The notes below the pieces were generated by a model. The model was not told where the DNA came from. It did not search any database and saw only the letters and a list, made by a program, of their open reading frames with translations. Below are positions 43,358-49,302 of a stretch of DNA of 64,000 bases, piece by piece. The DNA is from Bacteroidota bacterium (GTDB lineage Bacteria > Bacteroidota > Bacteroidia > AKYH767-A > 2013-40CM-41-45), in the NCBI GenBank assembly GCA_004295015.1, contig SHNE01000053.1, positions 1-64,000 of the forward strand, in the 5' to 3' direction. Numbering within the stretch: position 1 is the stretch's first letter; every line of letters begins with the position of its first letter. The translations under genes and the position numbers were made by a program.

Positions 43358-43546
43358 TCAGGCAGAGATATGAGAACCACGTCTCCTGACAGAACCACCA
43401 TGAATCACAGAGAATACGCTCCCCATTTGATCCAGCAAATTCTTTTCGATACTTTTGAGAGTGCTTGACGGATTTTTTTCTCCATAGGTAATGCTGAAAG
43501 GACTCTTGGTTTTGTTTTCAGGGAAAGAATTGTGTACGATTTCCAT
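43358..43546 (-). CDS. Small peptide with Gly-Gly motif, unknown
   Basis: The 62-residue frame starts at ATG 43546, 37 bp behind the pseudo-receiver gene, with an A-rich leader (ACCCTAAAAAA) typical of start regions here. The first 50 residues are polar with an amphipathic segment (SIEKNLLDQMGSVFSVI); HGG follows, then a basic 11-residue end (SVRRRGSHISA). The shape, a leader ending in GG and a short basic tail, resembles processed peptides in outline, but the usual spacing of hydrophobic residues is only partly kept. I cannot assign a family. Confidence 0.4.
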   Translation of the reverse strand: MEIVHNSFPENKTKSPFSITYGEKNPSSTLKSIEKNLLDQMGSVFSVIHGGSVRRRGSHISA

Positions 43547-43583: not shown

Positions 43584-44027
43584 TCAGATATTTATAAATT
43601 CCCTTAGTTGAAAAGCATCAAGTGGTTTTACGAGATAGCGAACAACACAGGTATTCATTAGAATTCTTTGTTTTTCTTCCAGGTCCTCGTGGTTGGTGAG
43701 GACAATTAATTTACACTTGTTTTTAACAAAATCAGACATGGCCTCGAACTCTGCAATGAAGTCTAGTTTTTCCAAGGCTTTCATGTTCAGGTTCACAAAA
43801 ATCAATTCAGGTACTTCACTTAAGCGTTGAATATTATGGAGATTGTGAATGGTCGTGTATGGATCTGATTCTAGTTTGACTTCTTTCGCTACATAGCAGG
43901 CACGTAAAATAGTCTCAGTAATTTGATGTTCAGTTTCATTTTCATCTAGAACAATGGCCCTGTGAAATCGGGGACTTGGCTGTTCCTCATGGTGGAGGAA
44001 GGGGGGGATTTGTTTTTTCGCTTTCAT
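43584..44027 (-). CDS. Receiver-like protein with altered phosphoacceptor
   Basis: The 147-residue protein has a basic N-terminal tail of about 20 residues, then a receiver-like fold: AIVLDENETEH (acidic pocket near Asp28), ELIFVNLNMKALEKLDFI at the phosphoacceptor strand, IVLTNHED with Thr111 and YLVKPLDAF with Lys134. In canonical receivers the acceptor strand reads D-x-x-M-P; here it reads N79-L-N-M-K, so the Asp is Asn and the Pro is Lys. It has no output domain. I infer a non-phosphorylatable pseudo-receiver acting by protein contacts. A run of seven G (44001-44007) lies near codon 8. Confidence 0.75.
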   Translation of the reverse strand: MKAKKQIPPFLHHEEQPSPRFHRAIVLDENETEHQITETILRACYVAKEVKLESDPYTTIHNLHNIQRLSEVPELIFVNLNMKALEKLDFIAEFEAMSDFVKNKCKLIVLTNHEDLEEKQRILMNTCVVRYLVKPLDAFQLREFINI

Positions 44028-44056
44028 GGTCTATGTGTTTCGGTTAATTGATACTT

Positions 44057-44064
44057 CAAAAATA
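44057..44064 (-). promoter_or_regulatory. -7 element before the pseudo-receiver gene
   Basis: TATTTTTG on the minus strand lies 30 bp before the ATG at 44027. The nearest TTG upstream is too far (27 bp), so the -33 element is weak or absent. Confidence 0.35.
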
Positions 44065-44099
44065 GAACATGCATATACCCTGAAAAAGGGACAAAATGT

Positions 44100-44154
44100 A
44101 AATAAATGGACATCCGGACTGCATCTGAATGATGAGCCGGATGTTCATTTATTT
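44100..44154. repeat. 18-bp stem-loop
   Basis: AAATAAATGGACATCCGG (44100-44117) and CCGGATGTTCATTTATTT (44137-44154) pair over 18 positions with one G-T wobble and a 19-base loop. No U-tract follows on either strand. It lies upstream of the pseudo-receiver promoter element and about 160 bp after the 81-residue gene's stop on the same strand. Confidence 0.7.
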
Positions 44155-44251
44155 GCTAAAAAATAGCATTATACCTTAAAGTTAATTTTATTGTTCGTTT
44201 TTTACCAAATTGCCGAAAGTTAAATTATTATATTGAATATCAAGAATTTAT

Positions 44252-44291
44252 GGTATTTATATCAAATAAGTTGCACGGATATAAAAATACC
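44252..44291. repeat. Stem-loop downstream of the 81-residue gene
   Basis: GGTATTTATATC (44252-44263) pairs with GATATAAAAATACC (44278-44291) over 12 bp with a 2-base bulge and a 14-base loop. On the minus strand it begins 23 bp after the stop of the 81-residue gene and could stabilise or end that transcript. Confidence 0.5.
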
Positions 44292-44313
44292 CCAATATTT
44301 GATATCAGAGACA

Positions 44314-44559
44314 TCAAGAATTTGTCTCTTTCTCATCACTCGGATTTGGATCGATGGTTGGAACAATGTCATCCTCACCATTTGAACCAGAGTCGGTTTG
44401 TTTGAAAAGTGCTTCAAACTCCTGATCACCCCCAAGTTCTTGGTACCGGGAGTCTGATTGTACCATGTTCATTGTGTCTGCATCAAGTAATGGAAGACTT
44501 GATTTATCCCCAACATTAATGCCTAAGGATAGAAGTAGTGCAATGATGAATTCTAGCAT
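44314..44559 (-). CDS. Small membrane-anchored acidic protein, unknown
   Basis: I use ATG 44559 (81 residues: MLEFIIALLLSLGINVGD...); the frame extends to a TTG at 44610. One hydrophobic helix at the N-terminus (about 2-16) is followed by an acidic, Ser/Asp/Glu-rich tail with many prolines and no Cys, probably exposed outside the inner membrane or in the cytosol. I do not recognise it. It is divergent from the 507-residue gene across about 115 bp. Confidence 0.55.
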   Translation of the reverse strand: MLEFIIALLLSLGINVGDKSSLPLLDADTMNMVQSDSRYQELGGDQEFEALFKQTDSGSNGEDDIVPTIDPNPSDEKETNS

Positions 44560-44674
44560 GTGTTTGTTTATTATAGTTCTCTTGCAAAGTAGTATTGAAT
44601 GAAAATTCAAATGATAGGTTTCTAAGTAGAATCTTACATTGTAATATTTTCACCATAATTAATTGAAACCAAAG

Positions 44675-46198
44675 ATGGATAGCCTAAATTATTTACGTGA
44701 AATTTTAAGAACACTTAAACCTGAAGAATTAAAGTCCTTGAAGGCTTTCTTAGAATTAGGTGGAATATCAATGGGGTCTCAATTATTAAAAAGCATAGAT
44801 TTAATAGGGCTCACACTTGACCAAAAAAATTACACTGCCCCAGAGTTACAGAAGGTTCTATATGGTAAGATCAATTATCAAGCGTTTAATAAACTAGTTA
44901 ATAGGTTAAAAGATAAAACACTTGAAGTCCTTTTGTTAAACATTAATTTGAAACGCGGATATTATTCTGAACGTAGCAAAACTATTTTTGAACTTCGCAA
45001 GAAATTGATTCAAGTTGAACTATTGATTCTGAAAGGGGTGAGATTGAAAATTATTAGTGAGCTCAATCTTATAATTGAAAAGGCTAAGGTTTTAGAGGTA
45101 TATGACGTATTAGTTCAAGCCTTATATGCTAAGCAAAGATTTCAAGTTCTCGATGTAGGAGCCACAAAAGCTGAATTAATCAGTAAGCAAATTCAAGACG
45201 CAGAATTGAAGTGGACCTCCTTGAACTATTCGCAGTCAAAATTCAATGAATTAATTTCCATGATCAGCAGCTCTTCAAATTCTGAGTCCTACAGAAGTGA
45301 TTTAACTTCGGGATTAAATTTATTGAAGGTAGAGTATGATAAAACCAATTCTCCGACTATAGGGTATTATTACAAACTATTAATGGTAGAAAAATTTCAG
45401 AATGAAAAGAATTACAAGAGGGCAGCTGAATTTTTAGTTGAATTGAATTTTTTAATTGAAAATAATAAATCGGTTTATAGCAAATATAGATTGGGAACAA
45501 CAACCTTGAATATTGCAAACAATCTTATTTTTCTTAAAAAACTTGATGATTCGTTTGACAAGTTGGTTATGGCTAAGGAGTACTTTGTGAATCAACCTGC
45601 CAACCTTGCCATTTTGAACGAGATTGAGTTTTACACTATGTTTTATCGCGGGAACATTGATGAATCGAGGTTATGTTTGGAGGCATTGATCAAATACACA
45701 AGAACTGTGAATACACCCATATTGCTTGATAAGAGAATTTTCTTCAAAGGATGTATTGAATTTATTCGTGGTGAATTTAAAGAAGCATTGGAGCTGATGT
45801 TACAATGTCATGAACTGGATAAGGATAAAGAGGGTTGGAATATCATCAAAAGGATCATGATCACGCTTTGCAGGATTGAGCTGGAGGATTATGAATCGGT
45901 TGACTTAAAGATTAACAGTCTTGATAAATTTATAAAACGCTTATTGAAAACTAGAAACATTAAACCGCGTTACCTTATAATTATTCGTGTACTGAGAAAA
46001 TTAATTAACGATAACTTCGATTACACAAAAGTTTTTGCAAGCAGAACGAAATACTTCAATCAACTTACCTCAGAAGATCCGGAATACCGCTGGGAAATTA
46101 AGAGCCCTGAGCTGGTTATATTTGATGAATGGTTTAAGTCAAAAATGAAAAAGAAGGCGTATGACCATAAAGCAATCATGCAACATATTTTCGTTTGA
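44675..46198 (+). CDS. Helical-repeat protein of unknown function, paralogue A
   Basis: I use ATG 44675 (507 residues); the frame extends to TTG 44663. The protein is soluble and almost all helical, with TPR-like pairs in the middle (for example YYKLLMVEKFQNEKNYKRAA). It is collinear with the 525-residue protein at 47725: GK-x4-AF-x2-LV-x2-LKD near residue 75, YSERSKTIFELRKKLIQ near 106, DVLVQALYAKQRF near 153, and the C-terminal EYRWEIKSPELVIFDEWFKS. The shared ends and length show a gene duplication. No catalytic motif is visible. A scaffolding or sensing role is possible but unsupported. Confidence 0.75.
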   Translation: MDSLNYLREILRTLKPEELKSLKAFLELGGISMGSQLLKSIDLIGLTLDQKNYTAPELQKVLYGKINYQAFNKLVNRLKDKTLEVLLLNINLKRGYYSERSKTIFELRKKLIQVELLILKGVRLKIISELNLIIEKAKVLEVYDVLVQALYAKQRFQVLDVGATKAELISKQIQDAELKWTSLNYSQSKFNELISMISSSSNSESYRSDLTSGLNLLKVEYDKTNSPTIGYYYKLLMVEKFQNEKNYKRAAEFLVELNFLIENNKSVYSKYRLGTTTLNIANNLIFLKKLDDSFDKLVMAKEYFVNQPANLAILNEIEFYTMFYRGNIDESRLCLEALIKYTRTVNTPILLDKRIFFKGCIEFIRGEFKEALELMLQCHELDKDKEGWNIIKRIMITLCRIELEDYESVDLKINSLDKFIKRLLKTRNIKPRYLIIIRVLRKLINDNFDYTKVFASRTKYFNQLTSEDPEYRWEIKSPELVIFDEWFKSKMKKKAYDHKAIMQHIFV

Positions 46199-46228
46199 TC
46201 TCTTATAAGAACCTGAATTTATGGAGTT

Positions 46229-47191
46229 GTGCAGGCTGGGAAAACATCTGTACTTGGCTGCTTGAAAATTCCAATTCACAAATTTTATCTGATCTGCCTG
46301 TTTATTTTCGCACCGGCACAGAGTGATGCTTCAAAAAAAGCAGGATTAAAAGCTGCATCCTATCTTCCTGATTCGACTTTTTCTTTTGAGAGTAAAATCC
46401 GATATCGGGTTTATCACGAGAATATTGATGTTTCAACCTCTTTTATTATTGCAAAGAATTCGCTTCCCCAGTATTCATCCTTCTTCCAGTTTACAGAGTT
46501 TTATAGATTAGGCTTGAAAAGGCTAGCTAAGAAAAGTGAGTTGGACGTATCTTTAGATTCAGAAATTGGATATAAATACTATTTGGATAGTGTGTGGGAA
46601 TTAAATCAGGATCGCTTCGATATGTCGATTTTCAGGTTTGAAAAGCTTGAGCGTCGATTTAGATATACCTACTCTTTGCAAATTAACACATCTCTTCTCC
46701 CTCGATATAAAACGAGGTATGAGCAAAATGATTCCGGTATTAAACTCAAGTCCGGTGGCTTATTTGATCCGGGGGAATTATGTTTAGCTTACGGATTCGC
46801 CTGGAGTTTTTGGGACTTTAGTTTCTTGAATGTCTCACTTGCCACCATAAAGGTTCAATCTGTTTCAAAATACATTATTGATGCACCTGAAACTAGTGCG
46901 GGCTACTACAAAAAGGAGTGGAAAATTGATTATGGACTCAGCGTAAACCTAAGGATTAATCATCGTTTATCGGAACGTATACAATGGTTAAATCAAAGTC
47001 GACTCTTTTTCAATTCCCTGGATAAGACCAAGCTCAGACTAAGTATTCAAAACCAAATCGAGTATAGGATCATTCGTTTTGTAAAACTATCACTATCTAC
47101 CAGGATCGATTATTTCCCTGTTCTTCATACGAAAGTTCAAATTGTCCAGGAGTTTCGGTTAGGGTTTGAATGGAGATTGAGTCCATACTGA
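46229..47191 (+). CDS. Predicted outer-membrane beta-barrel protein
   Basis: The 320-residue frame starts with GTG 46229; a TTG at 46262 (MKIPIHKFYLICLFIFAPAQ) would give a more typical signal peptide. There is no in-frame ATG in the signal region. The mature part is made of alternating amphipathic strands of 9-11 residues (FESKIRYRVYHENID, FRYTYSLQINTSLLPRY, LRLSIQNQIEYRIIRFVKL) and ends in an aromatic residue (...RLSPY), as barrel proteins do. The pattern fits 12-14 strands. I cannot name a family. It lies 30 bp after paralogue A on the same strand. Confidence 0.65.
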   Translation: MQAGKTSVLGCLKIPIHKFYLICLFIFAPAQSDASKKAGLKAASYLPDSTFSFESKIRYRVYHENIDVSTSFIIAKNSLPQYSSFFQFTEFYRLGLKRLAKKSELDVSLDSEIGYKYYLDSVWELNQDRFDMSIFRFEKLERRFRYTYSLQINTSLLPRYKTRYEQNDSGIKLKSGGLFDPGELCLAYGFAWSFWDFSFLNVSLATIKVQSVSKYIIDAPETSAGYYKKEWKIDYGLSVNLRINHRLSERIQWLNQSRLFFNSLDKTKLRLSIQNQIEYRIIRFVKLSLSTRIDYFPVLHTKVQIVQEFRLGFEWRLSPY

Positions 47192-47227
47192 TCCATACTG
47201 AATCAGAGGCTTTCTAAACAAAAAAAA

Positions 47228-47539
47228 TTACTCTTCCGTAAAGTCCTTATTAACAATTTTAGGCTCTGAAGCCAGTGACAGAGTACTTTGTCCCTTATAA
47301 CGGTTTTCCATTAAATCAAAGACCTCTTTCGGACTTAAATCATGAATACTGCATATTTTAAAGAAGTTTTTCATAGTAATGTTTTGTCCATTTTCCCAGC
47401 GCCAATAGGCCGTCCTGTTCAAGTTGTTTTCATAGCTGAACAATTCGGCAGATTTAAATCCTTTGTTCAGTCTTAGCCTTCTAATCACAATTCCGAGATT
47501 GATTAGCATTTCATCTTTAGGGTGGTTTTTAGTGCTCAT
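47228..47539 (-). CDS. XRE-family transcriptional regulator
   Basis: The 103-residue protein has one helix-turn-helix domain (about 15-75): LGIVIRRLRLNKGFKSAELF is the first helix pair, NLNRTAYWRWENGQNIT the recognition helix region, and FFKICSIHDLSPKEVFDL the end of the fold. A basic/polar tail of 25 residues follows. It sits between the barrel gene and paralogue B, in opposite orientation to both; control of one or both neighbours is likely but inferred. Confidence 0.83.
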   Translation of the reverse strand: MSTKNHPKDEMLINLGIVIRRLRLNKGFKSAELFSYENNLNRTAYWRWENGQNITMKNFFKICSIHDLSPKEVFDLMENRYKGQSTLSLASEPKIVNKDFTEE

Positions 47540-47724
47540 ATTTTTTGTGGTTTAGATTTAGAGCACTAAATTATTGCGCCTATGTTCCTATAGATTAGAA
47601 AAAGATGGATAGTTTATTACAACCCTAATTACAAATATTTATTTATTTTAGTCCTGTAAACGTATTATTAGAGGACAAATAAGCGGCGGTTGTTACAAAT
47701 ATATTTTGATTATATTCCGGACTT

Positions 47725-49302
47725 ATGAAAGAATTCACTGATTTAAAAAAAATTGTAGCTAGTTTGACGGATGAAGAGTACAGGTACGAACTATCTAAGA
47801 ATGGTAAAGTTTTGGGAGATAATTCATCTTACAGAATATTATTGGACTATTTAAGAGTTAATATTGATCCAACTATTGAAGAAACTGAATTGTTCATTTA
47901 TGGCAAGGGAAAAAGCTCAGCCTTTAAGCAGCTTGTTTATAGATCTAAGGATAGAATATTGGAGCTTTGGATTAGCAGATATTCAATTTCGAACAGTTTA
48001 TTTTATGATGATCGGGCAAAAGAAATATTTGCACTTCGTAAGCAGTTGATTCAATTTGATATCTTATGTTTACGAGGATTGAATGAAATTGCACTAAAGT
48101 TAATTGCACAAATAATACAGAAAGCAAAGCTTTATGAATATTATGATTTATTGGTGTTTGCTCTATACAAAAAGCTAAGGTTGAGTACTAATCGTACAGT
48201 TCTCGAAGACTATCAAAGTCAGCTTGCTGAAATTGATTTTTATGAGGATTGTCGGAAAATTTATCACAAGGCCGAAATCGATTACAAGAACTTATATATT
48301 CATTTGAATGAAAAAAAGAAAATAATTGAGCAGGAAAAAAACATAGAAAAGATTGTGAGAAATTTGGAGGCTGATGTGATTAGGACAAAATCGAAAACAA
48401 TCAGATATAATTACTTTCTTTTTAAAGCAGAGATGTATCACCTACAAGACAATTATGTTAGGAGCGCTGCTGTGTGGGAAGAATTGATTCAACTCGTTTC
48501 ATCAAATAAGTACTTAAATTCGACACATGGTCTTGGTCTAGCCTACTATAATTTAGGGAGATCTCAAGTGTTTCTTTTTGATTTTTCAAGTGCAAAGCAT
48601 ACTTTAAAAAAGGCCTTCCAGTTAACTCGGTACTTTGATCCAAACACTACAAGTTATTTCATGTACATGTTTCTTATCGCATACTATGAAGTTAGCAAAA
48701 AGGAAATTGAAAGGAACATTGACATTTTGAATTCATATTTTTATTCTGGGATAATAGTTCATTATCTCGCCGCCAAAGTTCAATTCTATAATGCTTGTAT
48801 CAAGTTTATTCAGCAGGATTATAAGTCTTCATATTTGTTGTTGAATGATGTAAAAGCGTTGGAGCAAGATAAAGAGTCATGGAACATCGCTATCCGGATT
48901 TTATCGATCATGAATCAAATTGAATTAGAGAACTATGCTTTGGCCGATACATTGATCGAGAATTTACGCAAGCATCATGAAAGGGTAAAGAAAACGTTAC
49001 CTGTATCCAAAAGGGATGAGAAAATTATTCAAATTCTAACAGCTCTTTCCAGGCATAGCTATCATTTCAGAAGAACATTCAGGGTTAAAGCTGAAGCATT
49101 TATTTTATTGGACTCCTTGGAGAAAGAGTACAGATGGAAAATCTTGAGTCCGGAAATGATTATTTTCCATGAATGGTTCAAGGCTAAGACGGAAAGCAAA
49201 ACCTATGATCATTTTGAACTTATGCCAAGGATTATAAAAAAGTATGCCGCCGTTCACAAAGGCTTTGTACCTTTGGAGGAAGATGTCGAAATTTTTAAAT
49301 AG
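47725..49302 (+). CDS. Helical-repeat protein of unknown function, paralogue B
   Basis: The 525-residue protein starts at ATG 47725. It matches paralogue A (44675) along its length: AFKQLVYRSKDRILEL, YDDRAKEIFALRKQLIQ, YYDLLVFALYKKLRL, YKSSYLLLNDVKALEQDKES and the C-terminal EYRWKILSPEMIIFHEWFKA. Between, HLNEKKKIIEQEKNIEKIVR is a coiled-coil-like stretch. TPR-like helices follow. The two proteins are clearly related but diverged. It overlaps the start of mnmH by 20 bp, a tight join to a housekeeping gene. Confidence 0.77.
   Translation: MKEFTDLKKIVASLTDEEYRYELSKNGKVLGDNSSYRILLDYLRVNIDPTIEETELFIYGKGKSSAFKQLVYRSKDRILELWISRYSISNSLFYDDRAKEIFALRKQLIQFDILCLRGLNEIALKLIAQIIQKAKLYEYYDLLVFALYKKLRLSTNRTVLEDYQSQLAEIDFYEDCRKIYHKAEIDYKNLYIHLNEKKKIIEQEKNIEKIVRNLEADVIRTKSKTIRYNYFLFKAEMYHLQDNYVRSAAVWEELIQLVSSNKYLNSTHGLGLAYYNLGRSQVFLFDFSSAKHTLKKAFQLTRYFDPNTTSYFMYMFLIAYYEVSKKEIERNIDILNSYFYSGIIVHYLAAKVQFYNACIKFIQQDYKSSYLLLNDVKALEQDKESWNIAIRILSIMNQIELENYALADTLIENLRKHHERVKKTLPVSKRDEKIIQILTALSRHSYHFRRTFRVKAEAFILLDSLEKEYRWKILSPEMIIFHEWFKAKTESKTYDHFELMPRIIKKYAAVHKGFVPLEEDVEIFK

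Follow-up and report, generated by a model that had tools for sequence, protein, structure and literature searches.

A tetratricopeptide repeat protein family of Bacteroidia accompanied by small divergent genes: candidate peptide receptors and precursors resembling Gram-positive RRNPP signalling

A 64,000-nucleotide stretch of DNA from a member of the Bacteroidota (GenBank assembly GCA_004295015.1, contig SHNE01000053.1, positions 1 to 64,000; here termed the window) carries at 44314-49302 a block of five genes, all of which were found where an initial annotation, made from the letters of the sequence, had placed them. Two encode paralogous tetratricopeptide repeat (TPR) proteins, TPR1 and TPR2, and one, divergent from TPR1, encodes a protein of 81 amino acids (aa). 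We report that small open reading frames (ORFs) of the latter kind accompany genes of the TPR family in many lineages, and we consider it somewhat more probable than otherwise that TPR1 and its neighbour would be a cytosolic peptide receptor and a peptide precursor, working like the RRNPP signalling pairs of Gram-positive bacteria. A broader proposition, put forward more tentatively as something short of probable, is that these genes represent a widespread and mostly vertically inherited peptide-pheromone system of Bacteroidota, the first in the phylum as far as searched, in which TPR receptors of their own sequence family would sense self-encoded tail peptides.

The pairing of TPR gene and small ORF is well supported. 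A partner was defined as an ORF of 40-135 aa with an ATG start and a hydrophobic N-terminus, lying within 600 bp and inside the intergenic gap. With the count limited to genes having an intergenic gap of at least 400 bp, and with other genes in the same loci as controls, 75 of the 99 TPR genes and 16 of the 170 control genes had a divergent hydrophobic-start ORF, the expectation from shuffled DNA being 2.6 (Fisher p 2e-29). This p value overstates independence, because the counted genes share descent; the stronger point is the spread of the association over families with different flanking genes, the small ORF lying beside the TPR gene, nearly always divergently, in 21 of 24 taxonomic families and 39 of 50 genera. 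A looser rule assigns partners to 84 of 131 receptor genes. The small protein thus belongs with the TPR gene and is not the bystander for which it had been taken. The Bacteroidetes promoter motif TAnnTTTG occurred upstream of small ORFs in 15 of 78 cases on each strand, with no enrichment over the reverse strand.

The block and one adjoining gene are arranged as follows (G and L numbers denote genomes and loci of the survey; f numbers, families).

44314..44559, minus strand: putative peptide precursor, 81 aa; homologues at the matching place in G001 and G009
44675..46198, plus strand: TPR1 (P0001), putative cytosolic peptide receptor, 507 aa, assigned by family profile and predicted structure
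46229..47191, plus strand: predicted signal-bearing, beta-rich (barrel-like) protein, about 312-320 aa; homologues in G001 and G009
47228..47539, minus strand: XRE-type helix-turn-helix (HTH) protein, 103 aa; HTH_3 match below threshold in Pfam; matching place in G001, G003 and G009
47725..49302, plus strand: TPR2 (P0002), second paralogue, 525 aa, without a peptide gene of its own
43584..44027, minus strand: receiver-like protein, 147 aa, adjoining the peptide gene; PF00072 match (E 1.2e-5) under Pfam's cut-off

The 81-aa protein, the only copy in its genome, starts 115 bp from the start codon of TPR1 and consists of a hydrophobic start free of Lys and Arg (MLEFIIALLLSLGI), a variable acidic spacer and a tail, EDDIVPTIDP.... 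Its homologues, in place in G001 (phmmer E 1.3e-10) and G009 (3e-7), two other genera-level lineages, conserve the start, a central GGD and the tail VDP, and its N-terminus is similar to those of small ORFs in other families. In relatives these ORFs are mostly 29-105 aa long. They are real protein genes under strong purifying selection: ratios of nonsynonymous to synonymous divergence (dN/dS) are mostly 0.01-0.4 in pairwise comparisons, the values for weakly similar pairs being biased downwards because pairs were picked by protein identity. The cleanest examples, in which silent change is at or near saturation and the protein hardly differs, are L115/L117 (dS 1.0, dN 0.01), L035/L067 (dS 2.1, dN 0.10) and the tandem ORFs of L081 (dS 0.8-1.3, dN 0.02-0.05).

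Several features of the small ORFs are those of peptide precursors. Tandem sets comprise four ORFs in L064, L074 and L115, and three in L033, L081, L110, L055 and L057. Tail-like units are also repeated inside single ORFs, as DIIVDEIAH three times in L108/L110 and as IIVDEIGH in L047/L089, and a precursor-like ORF of 126 aa in L139 (G066), divergent and 166 bp from its TPR gene, ends in five repeats of KPSTMFDQTDGVRA. Two diverged precursors stand side by side in L115 (MQTLT...LEIIVDELQH and MDSFW...VQIIVDELQH), both with the tail IIVDELQH. In clade f14 identity is about 0.8-0.87 over the first 14 residues and about 0.67-0.73 over the last ten, with 0.35-0.38 in the middle; this contrast of conserved tail and drifting spacer does not hold in every clade, f4 and f25 being more even. 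Two receptor clades (support 1.0 and 0.99) are both present in families f8, f14 and f50, and the tails there differ by receptor clade: IITNDETGM, IIGLEETDF and IVDVEDTGL in one, IIWETNEK, IIWGAEGDDF and WIWEIEEGR in the other. Of 76 dereplicated ORFs, 19 carry the tail motif [IV][IV]x(0-3)[DE][DEQN] within their last 22 residues; shuffling the tails gave 3.8 +/- 1.8, and 4.3% of other proteins have it. This enrichment is supportive only, because the motif was set after the sequences had been viewed and the 76 probably include some spurious ORFs. All small ORFs have a hydrophobic N-terminus, usually without Lys or Arg; basic Sec-type leaders appear only in f20, f25 and f41.

TPR1 and TPR2 are 33% identical across 469 residues (E 4e-56) and share the C-terminal box EYRW(E/K)I(K/L)SPE(L/M)(V/I)IF(D/H)EWFK, which bears out their description as paralogues. 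They are the sole copies in the genome at E <= 0.01, and neither has a signal sequence by eye. Their lack of a known family was upheld by profile searches of curated libraries: no above-cut-off family was returned from Pfam, NCBIfam or PHROGs, nothing relevant came from PADLOC, and Pfam TPR matches stay under the curated cut-offs. Structure prediction agreed with the helical nature first ascribed to them and yielded TPR superhelices. The AlphaFold2 model of P0001, resting like that of P0002 on a three-sequence alignment, has a mean predicted local distance difference test score (pLDDT) of 73, rising to about 85 over residues 97-500. Searched with Foldseek against the PDB, its nine top-ranked matches are Rap chains (best E 2.6e-4), and nine of the ten best are of Rap/NprR type; VIA-align gives RapI Z 20.3 and NprR Z 19.8. 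The weaker P0002 model (pLDDT 61) has as its five best matches NprR (Z 17.8) and four Rap structures (Z 17.0-17.1). When the family profile was run against PDB sequences, its matches were designed and other TPR proteins, the best natural one being RapJ (E 4e-6). The predicted TPR1 superhelix thus looks like those of Rap and NprR and resembles a peptide receptor. Invariant or near-invariant residues of the conserved C-terminal third include Arg432, Arg393, Glu479, Trp473, Trp486 and several Arg/Lys; that acidic tails would meet a basic site here is a guess.

The family was traced at three depths. P0002 as a single query matched proteins in 36 of 100 genomes related to the window's own; a 24-member profile placed the family in 109 of 396 genomes sampled across the class Bacteroidia, with receptors of about 478-578 aa; and a phylum-wide sample, searched at a stricter limit, gave matches in just three genomes, the window's among them, so that at this search depth the family hardly extends beyond the class. 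Tandem TPR copies are common, with five pieces in G019 and three each in G003 and G053. In several families of the window's order the locus is flanked by a TIGR02757-like gene on one side and MnmH/SelD on the other, and these conserved housekeeping flanks argue for vertical inheritance: the locus is apparently inherited by descent across the order and apparently not mobile. A phage or other mobile origin was rejected, as no phage record matched, no family member emerged from three scans of viral contigs (of limited sensitivity) and the flanks are conserved. Shortened or split TPR copies beside intact ones (L054 4283-4849, L058 6453-8011, L046 7546-7785, L037 4354-4731, L050 4874-5404) suggest repeated duplication and decay. 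A divergent small ORF (MMELIIAILIALGS...) also accompanies distant members of the family in L151, L152 and L153 (G022, G018 and G013; E 1e-38 to 1e-48), and the system therefore probably reaches a wider superfamily than was counted.

In the mechanism we propose, the newly made precursor would comprise a hydrophobic leader at its N-terminus, a variable spacer and a tail at its C-terminus. The leader would take it to the membrane, proteolysis would free the tail, and the tail, back in the cytosol, probably after export, would bind the TPR superhelix on its concave face and so switch the receptor. Phr, NprX and SHP peptides act in this way on Rap, NprR and Rgg, respectively, in Gram-positive bacteria. 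The tail is probably the ligand of the TPR protein; that it also leaves the cell and returns is a weaker supposition, given slightly less than an even chance. The genome has possible import routes in two binding proteins of OppA type and several PTR2 matches. Release of the tail, its secretion, re-import and binding, and what the receptor would control, are inferred.

A number of points weigh against this proposal, besides the bias in dN/dS already noted. By the looser rule 47 of 131 receptor genes, TPR2 included, have no partner, some of them at contig ends, and the tails of several clades do not match the II..[DE][DE] theme. Most leaders lack Lys and Arg, unlike Sec signals or the N-terminally basic leaders of SHP, and export is putative; a Gram-negative envelope, moreover, presents an additional outer membrane to cross. 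On the receptor side, LGN and other eukaryotic TPR proteins tie with Rap and NprR by Z in the VIA-align comparison of P0001, and a common TPR fold proves no function. Residues 1 to about 97 of P0001 are modelled at pLDDT below 50, and comparison with the PDB gave nothing convincing for them.

The known systems most like this one are the RRNPP(A) systems of Bacillota (Rap-Phr, NprR-NprX, Rgg-SHP, PlcR-PapR and AimR-AimP), in which a cytosolic TPR protein gene likewise adjoins a gene for a small, leader-bearing precursor. The predicted superhelix is nearest to Rap and NprR, and C-terminal tails are conserved. The divergent layout is reminiscent of Rgg/SHP. The differences are the phylum and its Gram-negative envelope, receptors of about 480-580 aa instead of 250-500 aa, the lack of a common sequence family beyond generic TPR, with no XRE-type HTH detected at the receptor N-terminus, leaders mostly free of basic residues, and mostly acidic tails. 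Duplications inside the precursor gene, reported to be frequent in RRNPP propeptides (PMC10075063), occur here too. When the five-point RRNPP signature of Bernard et al. (PMC10075063) was applied, the 81-aa protein fell within the propeptide range of 10-100 aa, the receptor and propeptide genes were direct neighbours (115 bp) and the receptor was predicted to form a Rap/NprR-like TPR superhelix; the receptors, at 507 and 525 aa, marginally exceed the range of about 250-500 aa. Given this length and a hydrophobic N-terminus that may or may not represent the export signal (Sec or PptAB/SHP-type) of the signature, we do not file the pair as an RRNPP member, but it probably works like one. The leaderless communication peptides of RopB show that a canonical Sec leader is dispensable for peptides used by RRNPPA receptors (PMC10518010); in that case, restricted to Firmicutes, the mature 8-aa peptide alone is encoded, whereas here a precursor of 29-110 aa is conserved.

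The main rival, which we regard as unlikely, is a membrane tether: the small protein would stay whole, its hydrophobic N-terminal part lodged in the inner membrane and its acidic, Lys- and Arg-free start outside, and its cytosolic tail would recruit the TPR protein to the membrane as a local sensor or scaffold, with no signal passing between cells. By the positive-inside rule, starts without Lys or Arg such as MLEFIIALLLSLGI, MELLIAVLIAFGV and MSTLILLVSMLF would favour an N-out/C-in orientation, and peptide tails are commonly bound by TPR superhelices. However, the hydrophobic run often spans no more than 12-14 residues, near-identical tandem genes and tail repeats within ORFs better suit a released peptide, and the basic Sec-type leaders (MKTK..., MKKL...) that other clades carry at the equivalent place would put the tail in the periplasm.

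That two helical scaffolds, barrel, XRE protein and small protein act jointly at the envelope in this lineage, as the initial annotation proposed, is now improbable. G000, G001 and probably G009 share the order TPR1-barrel-XRE-TPR2, and G003 also has TPR1-XRE-TPR2, all in one taxonomic family, where short-range synteny is explicable by common descent alone. The linkage across genera that it had looked for exists for the small protein, present almost everywhere with the TPR gene; the barrel and XRE genes were not found beside TPR genes of other families, so that the pairing of homologues with these two holds within the window's family and not as a conserved unit. Nothing found points to a link between scaffold and envelope, and the evidence points instead to a peptide receptor and its precursor.

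Least probable is a toxin-antitoxin-like pair, in which the tiny hydrophobic protein would be a membrane-active toxin that the TPR protein neutralises or regulates: type I toxins such as Ibs and Ldr are likewise tiny hydrophobic proteins in tandem copies, and the tandem ORFs here lie beside a larger gene, but a membrane toxin would not be expected to have conserved paralogue-specific C-terminal tails or tail repeats within ORFs, the tail here is conserved besides the hydrophobic part with a TPR gene alongside, the locus is syntenic and apparently vertical across the order rather than mobile, and PADLOC gave no match above noise for the TPR proteins.

Upstream of the TPR gene, family f6 has a gene for a TonB-dependent receptor or an M3 oligoendopeptidase, possibly supplying peptide-uptake and peptide-cutting functions. 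The TPR genes of L096, L106, L109, L111, L125 and L130 are divergent to a gene of about 1,210-1,250 aa (a TonB-dependent receptor in L096), and those of L132, L138 and L146 to one of about 570 aa (an M3 oligoendopeptidase in L132 and L146); Pfam assignments cover L096, L132 and L146. The small ORF has moved to the opposite side of the TPR gene in four f6 loci, where it retains a tail of the common kind: IIVIEDIHF, IIIFEDTHF, IIVVDDSPF and IIIYDDTHF.

The remaining genes of the block are restricted in distribution. The barrel-like protein, whose start codon is uncertain, has only sub-threshold DUF5929/DUF3078 matches in Pfam; its gene was seen only within the window's taxonomic family, clearly in two genomes and weakly in a third. 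A homologue of E 1.3e-29 lies between the TPR paralogues of G001, and a weak one (E 8e-4) probably between those of G009. It is a putative family-restricted passenger or output gene. The XRE protein matches a PADLOC 'control protein' (E 3e-6), and its gene, found only in four genomes of three genera in the same family, is divergent from TPR2 at the position expected for a peptide gene, as it is in G001, G003 and G009 (E 1e-30 to 1e-40). The best explanation is that the block was duplicated in the window's family and that TPR2 lost its peptide gene, the XRE gene now standing in that position. Four of the five kilobases of 44001-49000 have a G+C content of 0.325-0.334, versus roughly 0.36-0.43 over most of the window.

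Receivers are known targets of Rap proteins. The receiver-like protein beside the peptide gene is a possible output partner. The phospho-acceptor Asp of its FLDLNMP motif appears to read Asn (FVNLNMK), and it is perhaps a pseudo-receiver; the G009 version (L063) keeps the Asp. Homologues lie near TPR genes in G001, G009, G015 and G019, the gene in G001 (L053) being split into two ORFs. Receiver-domain neighbours as a general output were rejected, the counts being 16/511 near TPR genes versus 7/473 further away, a difference that is not significant. A second small conserved protein of the block is a 62-aa ORF at 43358-43546 on the minus strand, kept in G001 (L053; phmmer E 4e-11) with the common end VFSVIHGG..RRR. 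Downstream, the listed MnmH/SelU-like ORF shares 59 bases (49244-49302) with the 3' end of TPR2, and its true start probably lies further downstream.

Peptide quorum sensing through cytosolic TPR receptors is regarded as a Gram-positive trait. In the literature covered, mostly open-access and exclusive of bioRxiv preprints, RRNPP systems are described only from Gram-positive bacteria and no such system is reported for Bacteroidota; neither a review from 2026 nor the extensive RRNPP survey (PMC10075063) names one from this phylum. If the proposal is true, a signalling channel has been overlooked in a large phylum, with dozens of receptor/peptide pairs whose tails may be read from sequence and synthesised. 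It raises a testable question: do these bacteria sense peptides of their own making, and for what?

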